Part shown: one piece after another, positions 6,545 through 61,197 of the stretch
Layout of the letters: each line of letters opens with the position of its first letter
How positions within the stretch are numbered: position 1 is the first letter of the stretch
NCBI RefSeq assembly: GCF_019753045.1
Contig: NZ_JAIELN010000002.1
Span: 372,001 to 436,000, forward strand
DNA: 64,000 bases
Reading direction: 5' to 3'
From: Hyphomicrobium sp.
GTDB taxonomy: Bacteria; Pseudomonadota; Alphaproteobacteria; Rhizobiales; Hyphomicrobiaceae
Notes under the pieces: generated by a model
What the model was told of the DNA's origin: nothing
Databases searched by the model: none
Seen by the model: the letters and a program-made list of their open reading frames with translations, nothing else
Position numbers and translations under genes: made by a program

Positions 6545-7450
6545 ATGGATGTGTCGGCCTTTCTTGGTCTGAAGAGACGTCCCATCCCGATCATCGTGCT
6601 TCCGAAGGCACGGCTCGGCAACAAAATGCTCCAATATATGTTCTGTACGGGCCTCGCTCGCCGCATACCGGGCGCTGCGGCATTCAACGGTAGCATGCCT
6701 GAATGGTCTATACCGGCCGGCTATCCAACCGTACCTCGGGACCGTACGCTCCGGGTCGAAGGCGGTCATGAATTCGATATCGACGCGATCGTGCGCGAAT
6801 TCCACGAGAGCGGATACCAGGGCATAGAATGGTCCGGCTTCGCCTTTCGGATCGAGTATTACGATAGAGAGTGGGTTGAGCCGCTATTTAACGGAAGGAA
6901 AATAAGAGCGCCGCGATATGGAGACGATACGCTCGTCATTCACATTCGCGCAGAAGATATCCTCGAGGGAAGGCATAAGAATTATTGGCCTCTGCCTTTT
7001 GCCTATTTCGATAAGCTGATCAATGAGACGGGGCTGCGGCCGGTATTCATCGGCCAAACGCACGACGACAACGAATATTGCCGAAGGCTTCGCGGGCACT
7101 ATCCGGAGGCTGAATTCTCACCGCGCGCGTCGCCTGTTTTTGATTTTGAAATTCTGGGGCGCGCAACGCACATCGCCACCTCGGTGAGTTCGTTTGCGTG
7201 GCTCGGATGCTGGCGCTCGTCGGCGAAGACAATCTATCTTCCGATCGCCGGGCTCGCTGACCCGCGTCAACGCCCCGACGTGGATGTCCTGCCGATCGGA
7301 GATCAACGCTACAAGTTCCATCTGTTCGAACTCGGTACTTGGCATGCTTCCGCCGATCAATTCGCCTATCTGTACGATGGCGAGGGCCGCTTCGAACCCA
7401 TTACGCATGATCAGGCGGCGCAGTTGAAAAAGTTGCGCGCCGTCGCTTAG
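6545..7450 (+). CDS. GT11-like (fucosyltransferase-like) glycosyltransferase
   Basis: 301 residues. VLPKARLGNKMLQYMFCTGL resembles the GGLGNQMFQYA opening of alpha-1,2-fucosyltransferases, and LVIHIRAEDI around residue 131 resembles the HxRxGD peptide that binds GDP-fucose; the third motif may be ATSVSSFAWLG near residue 216, equivalent to the S-S-F-S-W segment. This supports a GT11/GT-B fucosyltransferase-type fold although the motifs are divergent, and the substrate may not be fucose. The start follows a GGGGG run. It extends the glycan gene set of the left end. Confidence 0.55.
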   Translation: MDVSAFLGLKRRPIPIIVLPKARLGNKMLQYMFCTGLARRIPGAAAFNGSMPEWSIPAGYPTVPRDRTLRVEGGHEFDIDAIVREFHESGYQGIEWSGFAFRIEYYDREWVEPLFNGRKIRAPRYGDDTLVIHIRAEDILEGRHKNYWPLPFAYFDKLINETGLRPVFIGQTHDDNEYCRRLRGHYPEAEFSPRASPVFDFEILGRATHIATSVSSFAWLGCWRSSAKTIYLPIAGLADPRQRPDVDVLPIGDQRYKFHLFELGTWHASADQFAYLYDGEGRFEPITHDQAAQLKKLRAVA

Positions 7451-20235: not shown

Positions 20236-20261
20236 GGAACGGTTTTAGGGGGATCCTCGTT
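20236..20261 (+). promoter_or_regulatory. sigma-EcfG promoter of the ribbon-helix-helix gene
   Basis: GGAAC (20236-20240), 17 nt, CGTT (20258-20261): a full match to the general-stress consensus. It points to the gene at 20338, with a leader of about 70 nt. Confidence 0.65.
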
Positions 20262-20337: not shown

Positions 20338-20592
20338 ATGAGCGCAGCTGCAAATAGGGATGAACGGCTCCAGATTATGCTTGAGCCGGAAGAACTGAGA
20401 GCTGTCGATGACTTCCGCTACAAATACCGCCTGCCGAGCCGCGCCGCGGCGGTGCGCGAATTGTTGAAGCGTGGGCTGACCAGCGCGCCGACAGGTACGG
20501 TTGATGACCATTCCCGATCGCAGGATTTTGGAGTTCTCCGGATTGCCAACGGCAGCCGCTTCAAGGACGCAGACAGTACCGACGGGAAGTAG
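20338..20592 (+). CDS. small ribbon-helix-helix-like protein
   Basis: 84 residues from ATG 20338, behind GAGGAGATTTTGCC. RLQIMLEPEELRAVDDFRYK followed by RLPSRAAAVRELLKRGL has the beta-strand, helix, turn, helix order of CopG/Arc-type DNA-binding proteins, including the S-R-A-A-A-V-R-E-L-L helix typical of the family. The last 30 residues are polar and probably disordered. A full EcfG promoter lies upstream, so it may be a stress-induced small regulator. There is no adjacent toxin, so it is not an obvious antitoxin. Confidence 0.6.
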   Translation: MSAAANRDERLQIMLEPEELRAVDDFRYKYRLPSRAAAVRELLKRGLTSAPTGTVDDHSRSQDFGVLRIANGSRFKDADSTDGK

Positions 20593-20931
20593 GTGCTGCA
20601 TTTTTGGCGTGTCATCGCGAGCGACCGGGCTACGCGCGCTGTGAAGCGGCGGCTTTGGGGTAGGGGATCAAAGCTTCCATTCGACACTTCGTCTCGAATG
20701 AAATTTAACGGTCGAGGTGCGGTTCACTGCTTCACGATCGATGACGGGCTGGCCGATGCGCGATCCTTCAGCAAGAGTTTTATCGAGACGCAATCGATGC
20801 GCTCGTGCGCGCAGCCTTCGGTTTCCTTCCCGCCAAGACGAACCTTTGCTGTCCCAGATCGGGAAAATCGAACCCGCTGGTGCGGCGCTTCTCATGCTTG
20901 GAGACTCAGGAAAAATTTTGCGTACGAGGCG
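20593..20931 (+). other. 339-nt intergenic region, nothing recognised
   Basis: Lies between the ribbon-helix-helix gene and the promoter of the candidate small RNA. Short frames exist here but none has a family motif or credible ribosome-binding site. Confidence 0.4.
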
Positions 20932-20956
20932 GGAACCGGAGATCGCGGTGGTCGTT
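20932..20956 (+). promoter_or_regulatory. sigma-EcfG promoter of the C-loop small RNA
   Basis: GGAAC (20932-20936), exactly 16 nt, CGTT (20953-20956). This is a perfect consensus match; a start site about 7 nt downstream would fall at the first base of the first hairpin of the RNA. Confidence 0.75.
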
Positions 20957-20962
20957 TTCCAC

Positions 20963-21062
20963 CTACAATCTCCCCCAAGATTGTAGTCTAGGCGCTACTC
21001 CCCCCGATAGCGCCGTCCCATAAGACGCCGGCTTTCCCCCCGAAGCCGGCGTCTTCTCGTTT
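20963..21062 (+). ncRNA. GsrN-like stress small RNA with three C-run hairpin loops
   Basis: About 100 nt. Hairpin 1: CTACAATCT / AGATTGTAG (20963-20971 with 20978-20986), loop CCCCCA. Hairpin 2: GGCGCTA / TAGCGCC (20991-20997 with 21008-21014), loop CTCCCCCCGA. Hairpin 3: a 13-bp stem (21022-21034 with 21043-21055), loop TCCCCCCG, ending in CTCGTTT. All three loops present runs of 5-6 C, able to pair with GGGGG-type Shine-Dalgarno sites. The perfect EcfG promoter puts it in the general stress response. Caulobacter GsrN, a sigma-T-dependent RNA with a C-rich targeting loop, is the closest known design; I cannot test homology. Confidence 0.7.
21022..21062 (+). terminator. intrinsic terminator ending the small RNA
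   Basis: AAGACGCCGGCTT pairs perfectly with AAGCCGGCGTCTT over 13 bp, followed by CTCGTTT. The T-tract is short but the stem is very stable. No coding gene precedes it closely. Confidence 0.7.
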
Positions 21063-21317
21063 GGCATCCCCCATACGAAAATCGTAAAGTGAAAATCGTG
21101 AAATGACGACGTGACTGCAGCGTCGATCGTCTCTCAGTCTTCTCCGGCCTGCGCCGGCCGCTCATCGGATTCGAAATGCGGCCACCGGATTGAACTCTGC
21201 GACTGATTGCTCAGCGTGCGACGTTATTCGAGCGCGCGCCGCGCAACAAACGGATGTGGCGAAGGTTTGCACCTCATCGGAGCTGTTTCAGCTCCTCCAA
21301 GAATGAGGAAAGCTCAA

Positions 21318-21773
21318 ATGCAGACATTGCGTAAGTTGGCGACTGTCGCTGCCGCGGCGCTTGCGGTTACGGCATTCTCCATTTCTGCCGATGCCCACGG
21401 TGGCGGCGGCGGAGGCGGTGGTCACGGAGGAGGCGGGGGAATGGGAGGCGGTGGCTTCATGGGAGGCGGTGGGGGAGGGGGCGGAATGGGTCACGGAGGC
21501 GGCGGCTTCGGTGGTGGCATGGGACATGGCGGCATGGGCATGGGCGGGATGGGCCCCCACGGCTGGAGCGGCGGTGGCTTCGAAGGGCACGGATTCCGCG
21601 CCGGTCCAATGGGCGGAAATTTCCGTGGAGAACACGGAGGTCATCACGACCATCACGGCCATTTCAGACGCGGCCCGTTCTTCGCGTTTGGCTATGACGG
21701 CTATTACGACGACGATTACTACTGCTACTGGCGCTACGGACGGCGCTACTGCGGCTACGGATATGGCTATTGA
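21318..21773 (+). CDS. exported Gly/His-rich protein
   Basis: 151 residues from ATG 21318, preceded by GAGGAAAGCTCAA. The signal peptide (about 1-27) ends at ISADAHG. The mature part is Gly/Met/His-rich, with GGGGGG runs, GMGHGG units and an HGGHHDHHGHF cluster, and ends in a Tyr-rich DDDYYCYWRYGRRYCGYGYG segment. The His clusters and two cysteines suggest metal binding, but this is inference. It resembles the glycine-rich exported protein at 18928 in layout, not in sequence detail. A strong terminator follows at once. Confidence 0.6.
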   Translation: MQTLRKLATVAAAALAVTAFSISADAHGGGGGGGGHGGGGGMGGGGFMGGGGGGGGMGHGGGGFGGGMGHGGMGMGGMGPHGWSGGGFEGHGFRAGPMGGNFRGEHGGHHDHHGHFRRGPFFAFGYDGYYDDDYYCYWRYGRRYCGYGYGY

Positions 21774-39300: not shown

Positions 39301-40587
39301 TTACTTTTCCAGCATGTCCACGAGGCGATACCAGGCGATCGCCACCCCGATTCCAACATTCCGAAACGCATGGAAGGGGATCGGCCGGATCGGCGTCGGC
39401 GGAAACGGGAGAAGTTCCGCGTTCTTCGTGACGAAATAGTCGACAAGCCGAGGACCGAGGCCGGTCATCAGGCCGATACCCCGGCCCTGGCATCCGGCTG
39501 CCACGAGCAATCCCGGCTCGGGTTCGTGCACATGGGGCAGGTGATCGAGCGTCATCGCGATACGTCCGTACCATCGATTTTCGATCGGGACATTGGAAAG
39601 CGCCGGATAGAGCCGCTTCAAGGCGTGCTCGAGATGAGCCCACGCTGAAGGGTCTGCCGGATCGGACATCGATCCGCGGCCGCCGAGCAGCATACGGCCG
39701 TCGGGACCCTTCCGATAATAAACGACGATACGGCGGGAATCTGAGACCACCTGCCCCTCCGGCAGGATCGTTGAGAGAAGCGCATCCGAGAGCGGCGCAG
39801 TCGCGATTTGAAATGAATGCAGCGGCAGAAGCGTCCGCGCGAGACCCGGAACGAGGGCATCAGCATAGGCATTCGTCGCGACGATGACGCCGTTCGCAGA
39901 GAGAGAACGGCCATCGGCGGACTTGAGAACCCAAGCGGAATTCTCACGTTTTAGCGCCGTTATTCGCGTGTTTTCGGCAATGCGGGCGCCCGCATCGATG
40001 GCCACCCGCGCCAGCTCGCGCGTATATGCGAGCGGTTGGATAGCGCCGCCGCGAGGGTCGAGCCAACCGCCGTGATATCCGCGCGCGCCGGTGAGGCCGC
40101 TGACATCGGCCGCGCTCAAAAGCTTGGCCGGTACGCCCCTTGCAGCCCATTGCTTGGCGCGCTGCTCGGCGGTCCGCACCGCACCCTCCGAGTGGGCCGC
40201 CTGGATCCAACCCGCTCGCTGGATGGGCACATCGAGTTTCTCGCGCGCAATGAGATCGAAGACGCCGTCTGCGAGCAATGCCCCGAAACGCACGAGAGAC
40301 TCGCCGCGCTTTTCGCCAAAATGTTGGAGCAGCCAATCCGGATCGTACTTCAGCCCGGGGATGACTTGGCCGCCGTTGAGGCCCGATGCACGATCGCCGA
40401 CATTCGCCGCTTCAAGAACACAGACGGAAAGTCCGCAGCGTGCTGCGTGAAGGGCTGAGGAAAGACCGAGAATTCCGCCGCCGACGATGGCGAGATCGAC
40501 TTTTTCGCTCGGCTTCAACGCGTCGGAGGCCAGGGGCGCGAAAGTGCGCTCGGCCCACACGGACTTTGCTTGGTAGCCGGCAACCAT
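39301..40587 (-). CDS. FAD-dependent amine oxidoreductase (DAO, PuuB-like)
   Basis: 428 residues. The N-terminal dinucleotide site VDLAIVGGGILGLSSALHAA is followed by LEAANVGDRASGLNGGQVIP, the DAO family GAGTSGRNGG-like segment, and the C-terminal VAAGCQGRGIGLMTGLGPRL closes the FAD site. It resembles gamma-glutamylputrescine oxidase and other DAO-type amine oxidases, which release an aldehyde, ammonia and hydrogen peroxide. Its position between an aldehyde dehydrogenase gene and a polyamine-type transporter supports oxidation of an imported amine. Substrate is not known. Confidence 0.88.
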   Translation of the reverse strand: MVAGYQAKSVWAERTFAPLASDALKPSEKVDLAIVGGGILGLSSALHAARCGLSVCVLEAANVGDRASGLNGGQVIPGLKYDPDWLLQHFGEKRGESLVRFGALLADGVFDLIAREKLDVPIQRAGWIQAAHSEGAVRTAEQRAKQWAARGVPAKLLSAADVSGLTGARGYHGGWLDPRGGAIQPLAYTRELARVAIDAGARIAENTRITALKRENSAWVLKSADGRSLSANGVIVATNAYADALVPGLARTLLPLHSFQIATAPLSDALLSTILPEGQVVSDSRRIVVYYRKGPDGRMLLGGRGSMSDPADPSAWAHLEHALKRLYPALSNVPIENRWYGRIAMTLDHLPHVHEPEPGLLVAAGCQGRGIGLMTGLGPRLVDYFVTKNAELLPFPPTPIRPIPFHAFRNVGIGVAIAWYRLVDMLEK

Positions 40588-49055: not shown

Positions 49056-49064
49056 GGGGGGAAA

Positions 49065-50459
49065 ATGAGTTCGACGCAGGACAGCGTAGCCGAATCCGGC
49101 TGGCCGCTGACGGTCAAAGACCGGACGTGGACGACGAGACAGTTGACCGTCGTCCTGCTTGTGACCGCCTGCGGGAACTGGTCTTATCTCATTGGCCAAT
49201 ACGTCGCCTTCTATCTCGATTTCAAAATGGGTGTCTCGGCGTTGATCGCAGGATCGATGATCGGGATGTTGATGCTCACGCTTGCCGTCGTGCCGATGTC
49301 GACGAAATACGGCATCGACTCGATCGCAGCGTCGAAGCCGCAGTTCGGCAATCGCGGCTGGTTGATCACCGTCTTCCTGCAATATGCGTCGATCATCGGC
49401 TGGAATACCCTGCTGCTCGTATTCTTTGGAAAAGCCGTTGCTCAAGCTCTGATCACGCTGGGATTGGCCGATCCGGAAAGCTCCCTCACGATCGTCAGAA
49501 TTGTATCGGGGGTGACGTGTATCGTCGTCTATCTAGTGCTGCTTCGCGGGCTCAAGGGTCTTGAAGCCGCCTCCAACGTGCTCTTCTTCGTCGTCGTGGG
49601 CATCGGCATTTGGATGCTCTATCAGCTGCTCTCCTCGAACGCGGAAGCTCTGGCCGTCGCAAAGCCGTCGATGGCGTCGCCAAGCTTGGCCTGGAATTAC
49701 GTCACGGGCGTCGAAATCAGCATCGTTTCGCTTCTTGGGTTCTGGGCATACTTCGGCACGATCGTCCGTGAATCGCCGTCTCCGTCGAAGTCTGTGTTGC
49801 CGTCCATGCTGGCGATGGGATTGTCGCTGCCATTGCTGAGCATTGTCGGGCTCGCAGCGATGCTGGTGCTGCAGGTGCCGGACCCGACCGCGTGGCTCGT
49901 GTCTCTCGGCGGCCCGCTCTATGGCCTCATTGCGTTGCTGCTGATCATGGCCGCCAATCTTGGGCCATCGCTCGCCGGTGTCTATTCGACCGCCATAGGC
50001 CTGCGCCGCGTGCCGGCCCTCGGAGATGCGCGCTGGGGCACGCTCATTCTCTTTTCGATCGTGCCGGTCGCGGCAGTCGGCATTCTCATCCCCGAAGAGT
50101 TCTTCTCGAACTTCGGCACGTTCTTGGCGTTCATCGGCGTCTTCTTTGCGCCGCTATGCGCGATCCAAATCGCCGATACCTTTTTGCTGCGGCGCAATTC
50201 GCTTAACGTCCGTGGGATCTATCAAGATGGACCGGGCACGCCTTACGAATTCTGGGGCGGCTTCAATCCGGCCGCTCTGCTCGCGATGGCGGCAGGTTTC
50301 GCAACCTATCTCTATCTTCTGAATCCTGTCTCCTACGAGAGCAGGTGGCCTTACGAATATACCACCGCTTCGCTACCGGCCGCTCTCATCGCCGGGATCG
50401 TGTTCGTCGCCGTGACGCGTCTCCTCGTCATGCGCATGAGGAAAGGCGACTACAAGTAA
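49065..50459 (+). CDS. NCS1 family purine/cytosine-type permease
   Basis: 464 residues, 12 membrane helices, with GGGGGGAAA before the ATG. It begins with a short polar arm (ESGWPLTVKDRTWTTRQLTV), then GNWSYLIGQYVAFYLDFKMG and the substrate-site helices WNTLLLVFFGKAVAQALITL and SIVSLLGFWAYFGTIVRES, typical of the nucleobase:cation symporter-1 family, which carries cytosine, allantoin, hydantoins or thiamine. It lies 9 nt after the MFS gene. With the divergent monooxygenase operon this points to a nitrogen heterocycle as substrate, an inference. Confidence 0.88.
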   Translation: MSSTQDSVAESGWPLTVKDRTWTTRQLTVVLLVTACGNWSYLIGQYVAFYLDFKMGVSALIAGSMIGMLMLTLAVVPMSTKYGIDSIAASKPQFGNRGWLITVFLQYASIIGWNTLLLVFFGKAVAQALITLGLADPESSLTIVRIVSGVTCIVVYLVLLRGLKGLEAASNVLFFVVVGIGIWMLYQLLSSNAEALAVAKPSMASPSLAWNYVTGVEISIVSLLGFWAYFGTIVRESPSPSKSVLPSMLAMGLSLPLLSIVGLAAMLVLQVPDPTAWLVSLGGPLYGLIALLLIMAANLGPSLAGVYSTAIGLRRVPALGDARWGTLILFSIVPVAAVGILIPEEFFSNFGTFLAFIGVFFAPLCAIQIADTFLLRRNSLNVRGIYQDGPGTPYEFWGGFNPAALLAMAAGFATYLYLLNPVSYESRWPYEYTTASLPAALIAGIVFVAVTRLLVMRMRKGDYK

Positions 50460-58106: not shown

Positions 58107-58242
58107 CCGTGCAAAATCCTCGGTGAAGCGAAGGGAAAGACTGCGGGGGCCCCGGGACCGGGCCGTCACCATCCATAACATGGCAACGCCTGGCCGCATG
58201 AAGCCCCCGCTCCGTTAGCAAGAAAGAAAAGCGGTCGCGATA

Positions 58243-60588: not shown

Positions 60589-61197
60589 TCAGTAGGACGG
60601 CGGTGTGATTGCCCAGACGACGACGGTCTCTACGCTGCCCGGATTGCGGTAGCGATGAGGCGTTGTCGAAGGAAAGCTGAAGCTATCGCCTTCTCGCAGC
60701 ATGAACGATTGTTCGCCGATCCACAGTTCGAGCGACCCGGCGAGGATCAGCCCGGCCTCTTCGCCATTATGCGTATAGGGCGTTCCGGCCTCCGTTGATC
60801 CGGGCGGAAATCGCGACATCAGCAACTCAAGCTGCCCGCGCAGATTGGGCGACAGCAGCTCGTCGGTTATCCCCGACGAAAAGCGCAGCGTACGCCTGTT
60901 GCCCGCGCGCACGATATAGTCGCGCTCGTCCGGGTCTCCACCCTCTGCGTTGTGCAGAAACCATCCGATGGTGACGCCAAGCGCCTTGGCAATATCATGC
61001 AACGTCTTGATGCCGGGAGAAGCAATTCCACGCTCGATCTCACTCAGATGCCCGATCGACAACGAAGTCGCGAGGGAAAGCTCCTTTATCGTCAGCCGTT
61101 TGGCTTTTCGGAGGTCGCGAATTTCCGCACCAACGCGCGTCGGCGTCAGATCTTCGTCCTCCGAAGCCGTCGCCGCCTTCTCAATTGACGCCGGCAT
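60589..61197 (-). CDS. XRE-cupin transcriptional regulator
   Basis: 202 residues from ATG 61197, preceded by GGGGGA (a GTG at 61227 is an alternative). The helix-turn-helix is IRDLRKAKRLTIKELSLATS with SIGHLSEIERGIASPG and the cupin domain has THNGEEAGLILAGSLELWIG and MLREGDSFSFPSTTPHRYRN. Third regulator of this kind in the window. It is divergent from an AraC regulator, with an inverted repeat in between. It is probably a repressor of amine or amino-acid catabolism genes. Confidence 0.9.
   Translation of the reverse strand: MPASIEKAATASEDEDLTPTRVGAEIRDLRKAKRLTIKELSLATSLSIGHLSEIERGIASPGIKTLHDIAKALGVTIGWFLHNAEGGDPDERDYIVRAGNRRTLRFSSGITDELLSPNLRGQLELLMSRFPPGSTEAGTPYTHNGEEAGLILAGSLELWIGEQSFMLREGDSFSFPSTTPHRYRNPGSVETVVVWAITPPSY

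Follow-up and report, generated by a model that had tools for sequence, protein, structure and literature searches.

A conserved RNA gene with three C-run hairpin loops behind an EcfG-type promoter in Hyphomicrobium, and its candidate G-tract targets

The window analysed here, a stretch of 64,000 nucleotides of Hyphomicrobium DNA, contains a short interval that raises two questions: is it the gene of a small RNA made in the general stress response (GSR), and what might the C-run loops of such an RNA bind? The interval opens with a promoter of the type read by the general stress sigma factor EcfG, GGAAC-N16-CGTT, at 20932..20956 on the + strand (GGAAC 20932-20936, 16 nt, CGTT 20953-20956). The small RNA gene itself is placed at 20963..21063 (+), its start following from the promoter spacing, its end from the last hairpin, and its standing as a gene from conservation in five congeners. 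It consists of three hairpins within 100 nt, all with perfect stems. Hairpin 1 (20963..20986, +) has a 9-bp stem (20963-20971/20978-20986) and the loop CCCCCA, which is unpaired at 1.0 in the fold ensemble. Hairpin 2 (20991..21014, +) has a 7-bp stem (20991-20997/21008-21014) and the loop CTCCCCCCGA, of which five C's are unpaired at 0.99-1.0 and the remaining bases are mostly largely paired. The linker GTCCCAT (21015..21021, +) is unpaired, with GTCC invariant across the six orthologues described below, and is followed by hairpin 3 (21022..21055, +), with a 13-bp stem (21022-21034/21043-21055) and the loop TCCCCCCG, a probable terminator with a weak U-tail. The promoter, the three perfect hairpins and their C-run loops had been picked out in a sequence-only reading of the same DNA; all are read directly from the letters, and the fold of 20955-21070 agrees, giving the same three hairpins at -47.8 kcal/mol (z -8.44, with none of 200 shuffles as stable). 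The C-runs are accessible in the computed ensemble, in line with that reading.

The arrangement is rare in this genome. Counting as a C-run hairpin any perfect stem of 6 bp or more that closes a loop of 4-11 with 4 or more consecutive C's, we found 28 on both strands of 456 kb of the window genome, the three of the window RNA included, and only these three have a same-strand neighbour within 120 nt. C-run loops are not typical of this genome's terminators: of 20 terminator-like hairpins in the 456 kb, none has a run of at least 4 C's in its loop, and the idea was rejected. Hairpin 3 was missed by that terminator-like filter because its tail is U-poor (CTCGTTTGG in the window genome); the tail reads CATTTTTT in two of the orthologues, G008 and G015. 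Of the earlier description of hairpin 3 as a 13-bp terminator, the perfect 13-bp stem thus stands, while the terminator part is weakened by the tail and by a terminator scan of 20600-21320 that found none. In the same 20600-21320, a sigma-70 scan gave no site upstream of the RNA; its one weak hit is at 21061-21090.

By frequency alone, the promoter motif is at the level of chance (3 in the window against 2.7 expected, and 110 in the whole genome against 108 for a reversed control), and the promoter of the window RNA is credible solely because the motif is kept at all six orthologous loci. There, GGAAC-N16/17-CGTT lies 31-32 nt 5' of the RNA in every case, and the interior of the spacer has diverged, which upholds the proposed RNA gene with its EcfG-type promoter. 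Of the 49 places listed as covariance-model matches 40 were inspected, the six orthologous loci included, and the motif was found at none of the other 34, one of which (L027) has only 3 nt of upstream sequence. Across 22 genomes of the genus, the motif is followed by CCCCC within 6-36 nt at 64 sites, where the reversed control gives 20. The 64 are an overcount: in six cases a longer C-run was counted a second time, and recurring orthologous sites, of which some appear to be coding, raise the number further. NepR is present in all 22 genomes. The GSR locus of the window genome encodes an EcfG-like sigma factor, PhyR and a HisKA_2-type kinase with a CHASE3 domain, and by eye the same promoter motif occurs 5' of further GSR-locus genes in many congeners. 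On this sequence evidence, we hold with good confidence that the window RNA is probably EcfG-controlled.

BLAST finds the RNA in six of the 22 Hyphomicrobium genomes: the window genome (G000), G003, G020, G006, G008 and G015. A pattern built from hairpin 1 and the linker matches Hyphomicrobium facile DSM 1565, a Hyphomicrobium MAG and a Proteobacteria MAG. In 103 genomes of the family, BLAST gave three extra matches only (L018-L020), all short; these were rejected as homologues, being 24-29 bases long and, by eye, inside apparent coding sequence, and a distant BLAST search in plasmids was likewise set aside, with one match of 31 bases. A covariance model built from four orthologues recovered the two left-out ones, which score 88 and 86 bits. 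Some match with E up to 0.1 was seen in 36 of the 103 family genomes, with non-orthologues at 52 bits or less. Among 397 sampled genomes of the order, for which filters were strict and the scoring covered 10 candidates per genome, 19 had a match; only the window genome itself and G015 scored above 45 bits, and the best matches of the other 17 have no EcfG motif.

Every one of the six carriers has, upstream of the RNA, an orthologue of the same gene, an 84-aa ORF at 20338..20592 (+) with no Pfam or NCBIfam match at E 0.001, whose product we take to resemble a ribbon-helix-helix protein. The ORF is matched at 83-94% in the five other carriers, and five further congeners have only 43-52% matches to it. 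A second EcfG-type site lies 5' of this ORF, at 20236..20261 (+), as GGAAC-N17-CGTT in three of the six genomes and, by eye, as GGAAAC...CGTT at the same place in the other three.

In global comparison with the window sequence, the RNA is 97% identical in G003, 94% in G020, 86% in G006, 87% in G008 and 85% in G015. The values for the 20338 ORF, in the same order of genomes, are 88, 85, 80, 74 and 75%; for the promoter stretch 84, 84, 67, 57 and 69%; for the spacer 61, 63, 45, 39 and 40% (shuffled baseline 38, against G015); and for the 150 nt that follow the RNA 62, 57, 48, 49 and 47% (shuffled baseline 46). The RNA, at 85-97%, is therefore held more tightly than the adjoining gene, at 74-88%, and its flanks are at shuffled level in the two most distant genomes. 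An RNA that stays above its neighbouring gene, between flanks that fall to the shuffled level, is best explained as a selected RNA gene, and we conclude that the element almost certainly is one. The alternative, that it is a chance arrangement or a mobile repeat and no gene, fits the chance frequency of the promoter motif taken alone. Against it, the window genome has a single full-length copy, and the element is kept in place in six genomes whose flanks have diverged, with the RNA above both flanks and neighbouring coding sequence, so that we give this alternative next to no probability.

The glycine-rich gene at 21318 offers another explanation, in which the element would be a cis-acting leader or attenuator, since the gene is on the same strand and begins about 260 nt 3' of hairpin 3. 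However, it has no match in the flanks available for G006 (L012, about 1.5 kb) and G015 (L013, and L061 with 8 kb), and where it is found its distance from the RNA varies, although orthology is uncertain because the protein is of low complexity. In addition, the 150 nt 3' of the RNA are near the shuffled level in G006, G008 and G015, and inspection by eye saw no start codon with a ribosome-binding site within the RNA. A cis-acting role is thus very unlikely.

The sequence-only reading had gone further in claiming that the stems differ and that the loops are what has been kept. The six orthologues do not bear this out: of 28 base pairs 23 are invariant, one is broken in one sequence and four vary yet stay paired, only one pair changing on both sides; one position in the stem of hairpin 2 is CG, UA or UG in different orthologues. 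These pairs were counted on the model alignment, which leans towards structure, the DNA alignment having misplaced hairpin 2 of G008 and G015. Covariation among the six is not above that of shuffles (158 of 500), and the structure is therefore consistent with covariation and unproved by it. C-runs of 4 to 6 are kept in all 18 loops. Loss of stems or C-runs in relatives, which the earlier reading had named as a point against the RNA, is seen at none of the six orthologous loci; the other 16 genomes have no identified orthologous spacer and are uninformative in this respect.

G015 also has a second, diverged copy of the RNA (contig C2, L051 1001-1105; 52 bits, E 1e-9). Its stems are changed and all three of its hairpins keep C-run loops; its promoter keeps GGAAC at -31, without CGTT. 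Judged from sequence comparison, this copy is the best evidence that the loops may outlast the stems, and it is here that the earlier claim finds support.

Other RNA-like elements with C-rich loops were observed in the course of the model searches. Four (L028, L029, L030 and L034), in congeners and other members of the family, are further three-hairpin RNAs with C-rich loops, mostly C-runs, and without the EcfG motif. A recurring element of several genera of the family has the form GGCGCCGTCCC...CCCCCC...GGCGTC followed by a C-run terminator hairpin (L037, L038, L040, L053, L055, L057 and L060), and shares GCGCCGTCCC with the window RNA.

What, then, might the RNA do? We consider it most likely, with modest confidence, that it acts as an antisense RNA on G-tract ribosome-binding sites and blocks them, a reading in which we infer transcription, EcfG dependence, repression and targets alike. 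When the general stress response is on, RNA polymerase with sigma-EcfG would make a trans-acting small RNA of about 100 nt, each hairpin of which would expose a run of 4-6 C's. These loops would block the translation of selected mRNAs by pairing with the G-tracts of their ribosome-binding sites. On a GGGGG-type site the C-runs would form an unbroken G-C helix, where 16S rRNA would need a G-U wobble; in the canonical GGAGG, the A would interrupt the helix. The GGGGG class (for example the permease gene at 49065) would therefore be silenced and most other genes spared. By analogy, such a mechanism would combine an architecture like that of sX13 of Xanthomonas with control like that of GsrN of Caulobacter.

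The proposal that GGGGG-type ribosome-binding sites are the partners is supported by their enrichment in the window genome. In 456 kb, GGGGG is found at -22..-3 of 19 of 334 gene starts, against 2 at -60..-41 and 4 at +30..+49, the starts being crude script calls of the longest frame and not those of a gene finder. The same 334 starts give GGAGG at 8 (controls 4 and 2) and CCCCC at 2 (controls 1 and 2). When starts were chosen partly by Shine-Dalgarno score, the counts were 21 for GGGGG and 20 for GGAGG of 334. By these two crude counts, GGGGG-type sites in the window genome are no rarer than GGAGG. In the five relatives, with syntenic 70-kb stretches summed, GGGGG is found at 9 of 241 starts against controls of 2 and 6, and the excess there is therefore weak. 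Two genomes that lack the RNA also have such sites (8 of 158 starts in G004, with controls 1 and 0; 4 of 159 in G005, with controls 1 and 4), from which it follows that the window RNA is not the cause of the GGGGG class.

A candidate target is the GGGGGG ribosome-binding site at 49056..49061 (+) of the NCS1-type permease gene at 49065, which had already been named as an example. Of five window genes with G-tract sites, the permease alone has 5 or more G's in every one of the six genomes, and in fact never fewer than 6; its orthologue in G005, without the RNA, has GGGGG as well. The HTH-cupin gene at 61197, followed in the syntenic stretches, has at least 5 G's in five of the six and GGGG in G020. 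For the FAD oxidoreductase at 40587 there are 5 G's in G003 and G020, 4 in G006, and no match in G008 and G015. The gene at 6545 is matched in G003 only (GGGGG), and that at 58199 keeps its G-tract in G003, its other matches beginning inside the protein. Predicted duplex energies at the permease site are -13.4, -16.7 and -18.5 kcal/mol for the three loops against -11.3 for the 16S anti-Shine-Dalgarno (anti-SD) sequence; with canonical AGGAGG they are -6.6 to -9.7 against -11.1. We used what we take to be the 16S rRNA tail. Overall, the C-loops are predicted to beat the 16S anti-SD at the three GGGGG sites tried, and the anti-SD to beat the C-loops on AGGAGG and on the site of the 20338 ORF itself.

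This predicted separation bears on a further explanation, that the RNA is an unselective anti-SD RNA, or else a C-rich decoy for a protein such as Rho or an RNA chaperone and not an antisense RNA. C-rich single strands bind Rho, and several C-rich RNAs occur in the genus. However, the C's of the window RNA are confined to short closed loops, the predicted pairing sets GGGGG apart from GGAGG sites, and base pairing in the analogues sX13 and B11 is described as supported by loop or target mutations (PMC3771888, PMC12395582). We therefore regard unselective binding or a decoy as quite unlikely, and keep to a selective antisense RNA.

The analogue suggested at first was GsrN, which is described as activating katG through the katG 5' leader (PMC5869019). 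The window RNA could likewise be a positive regulator, with C-loops that stabilise or activate stress mRNAs by binding their G-rich 5' leaders instead of covering ribosome-binding sites; it has a promoter of the same sigma-factor class and C-rich loops. However, katG (TIGR00198) was found in only three of the six carriers, and the roughly 260 nt upstream of it lack any G-run of at least 4 in G000 and G015; those of G020 contain a single GGGG, some 158 nt before the gene. With no G-run of 4 near its start, katG is not supported as a conserved target. Moreover, G-tracts in the window genome are enriched at the position of the ribosome-binding site, and the GSR locus has an RNA of its own, which answers better to the GsrN criteria. 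An activator of this kind is accordingly unlikely.

In the text consulted, the search for GsrN-like RNAs outside the Caulobacteraceae relied on location at the GSR locus, an EcfG site and transcription (PMC5869019). By eye, a candidate of this kind lies beside ecfG-nepR-phyR in 15 of 20 Hyphomicrobium genomes examined (of the 22, G018 and G021 were left out), all six carriers of the window RNA included; with the strict motif it was not seen in G001, G004, G010, G011 and G012. In the window genome it is on contig C11 of G000 (L131 2100-2240). It has GGAAC-N16-CGTT, then a C-rich stretch, mostly CTCCCTCCC(C)ACTCCCCC, which forms an internal loop, and then a terminator-like hairpin whose loop is a C-run. 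Twelve sequences were aligned, leaving out the divergent forms of G007, G016 and G017, and give a consensus fold in which five pairs differ on both sides; for the window genome's own sequence the fold has a z of -5.07. No Rfam family fits, the best score being 12.8 of 40 bits. This RNA of 15 of the 20 genomes would extend the GsrN class.

The window RNA lies elsewhere. In G020, a single contig, it is at 3130771 and the two NepR matches are at 504858 and 2279420; in the window genome it is on C1, and the NepR matches are on C11 and C4. It thus has a near-consensus EcfG promoter as GsrN does, and is not positioned at the ecfG-nepR-phyR locus (the published exception of C. crescentus aside). A separate RNA sits at that locus, and the window RNA is not its GsrN candidate; it was also rejected as a replacement of GsrN in its clade, as all six carriers have both RNAs. 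It is therefore a second C-rich RNA with an EcfG motif, seen in one set of six genomes. The GSR-locus RNA being C-rich as well, targets cannot be assigned to a single one of the two. Tentatively, one can imagine that general stress acts through the pair of C-loop RNAs, silencing mRNAs with GGGGG sites, while those of the GGAGG type stay translatable. If this were true, translation would be switched by mRNA class, and the type of ribosome-binding site would mark the class.

The window RNA appears to be undescribed in the literature searched. Among the matches listed, there was no small-RNA or EcfG study of Hyphomicrobium, no noncoding-RNA transcriptome work on this genus covering the RNA, and, for EcfG together with a C-rich small RNA, only the work on GsrN. 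An Rfam scan of the window at gathering thresholds gave no match; the sub-threshold scores, among 13 listed, include 6C at 37.1 of 47 bits, ar14 at 30.4 of 58.8, Scr3202 at 28.5 of 52, CcsR1 at 16.9 of 65.3 and sX13 at 15.4 of 50. We take sX13 to be gammaproteobacterial, and the mycobacteria of 6C RNA and B11 to belong to a different phylum from Hyphomicrobium.

The sequence-only reading had also pointed to the alpha-r families. Like the window RNA, ar14 or NfeR1 (RF02344) has three hairpins with one motif in every loop and stems that differ between hairpins, and NfeR1 has a sigma-70 promoter signature where the window RNA has an EcfG-type one (PMC10746234). The model match of ar14 is full-length and weak, and its anti-SD motif CCUCCUCCC is absent from the loops CCCCCA, CTCCCCCCGA and TCCCCCCG, so that membership was rejected on both threshold and motif. 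The alpha-r7 RNAs are likewise described as having three stem-loops with C-rich motifs (PMC3771888); no match of that name is among the 13 listed. 6C RNA (RF01066), with B11, shares C-run hairpin loops, that of the terminator included, and the C-rich terminator loop of B11 acts at guanine tracks beside ribosome-binding sites (PMC12395582); the 6C match falls below threshold and spans just hairpins 2 and 3.

GsrN and the Rhizobiaceae GsrN-like RNAs share with the window RNA an EcfG-class promoter and an exposed C-rich loop (PMC5869019), but the window RNA differs in having three hairpins with closed C-run loops, in lying away from the GSR locus and in having no conserved G-tract at katG. Three C-loops on one RNA, put forward in the sequence-only reading, are indeed present and are already known from sX13 (RF02232), which has three stable stems with loops of 4C, 4C and 5C and represses mRNAs whose G-motifs lie close to the start codon (PMC3771888). 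The two RNAs are without sequence relation, and sX13 is encoded at the polA locus, with no EcfG control mentioned in the text consulted (PMC3771888). By analogy, sX13 is nevertheless the closest known system in function. The window RNA is thus a known principle in a new lineage and a new combination: it joins the three-C-loop architecture of Xanthomonas to the alphaproteobacterial general stress response, and it suggests a concrete code, in which a C-run loop would recognise GGGGG rather than GGAGG ribosome-binding sites.
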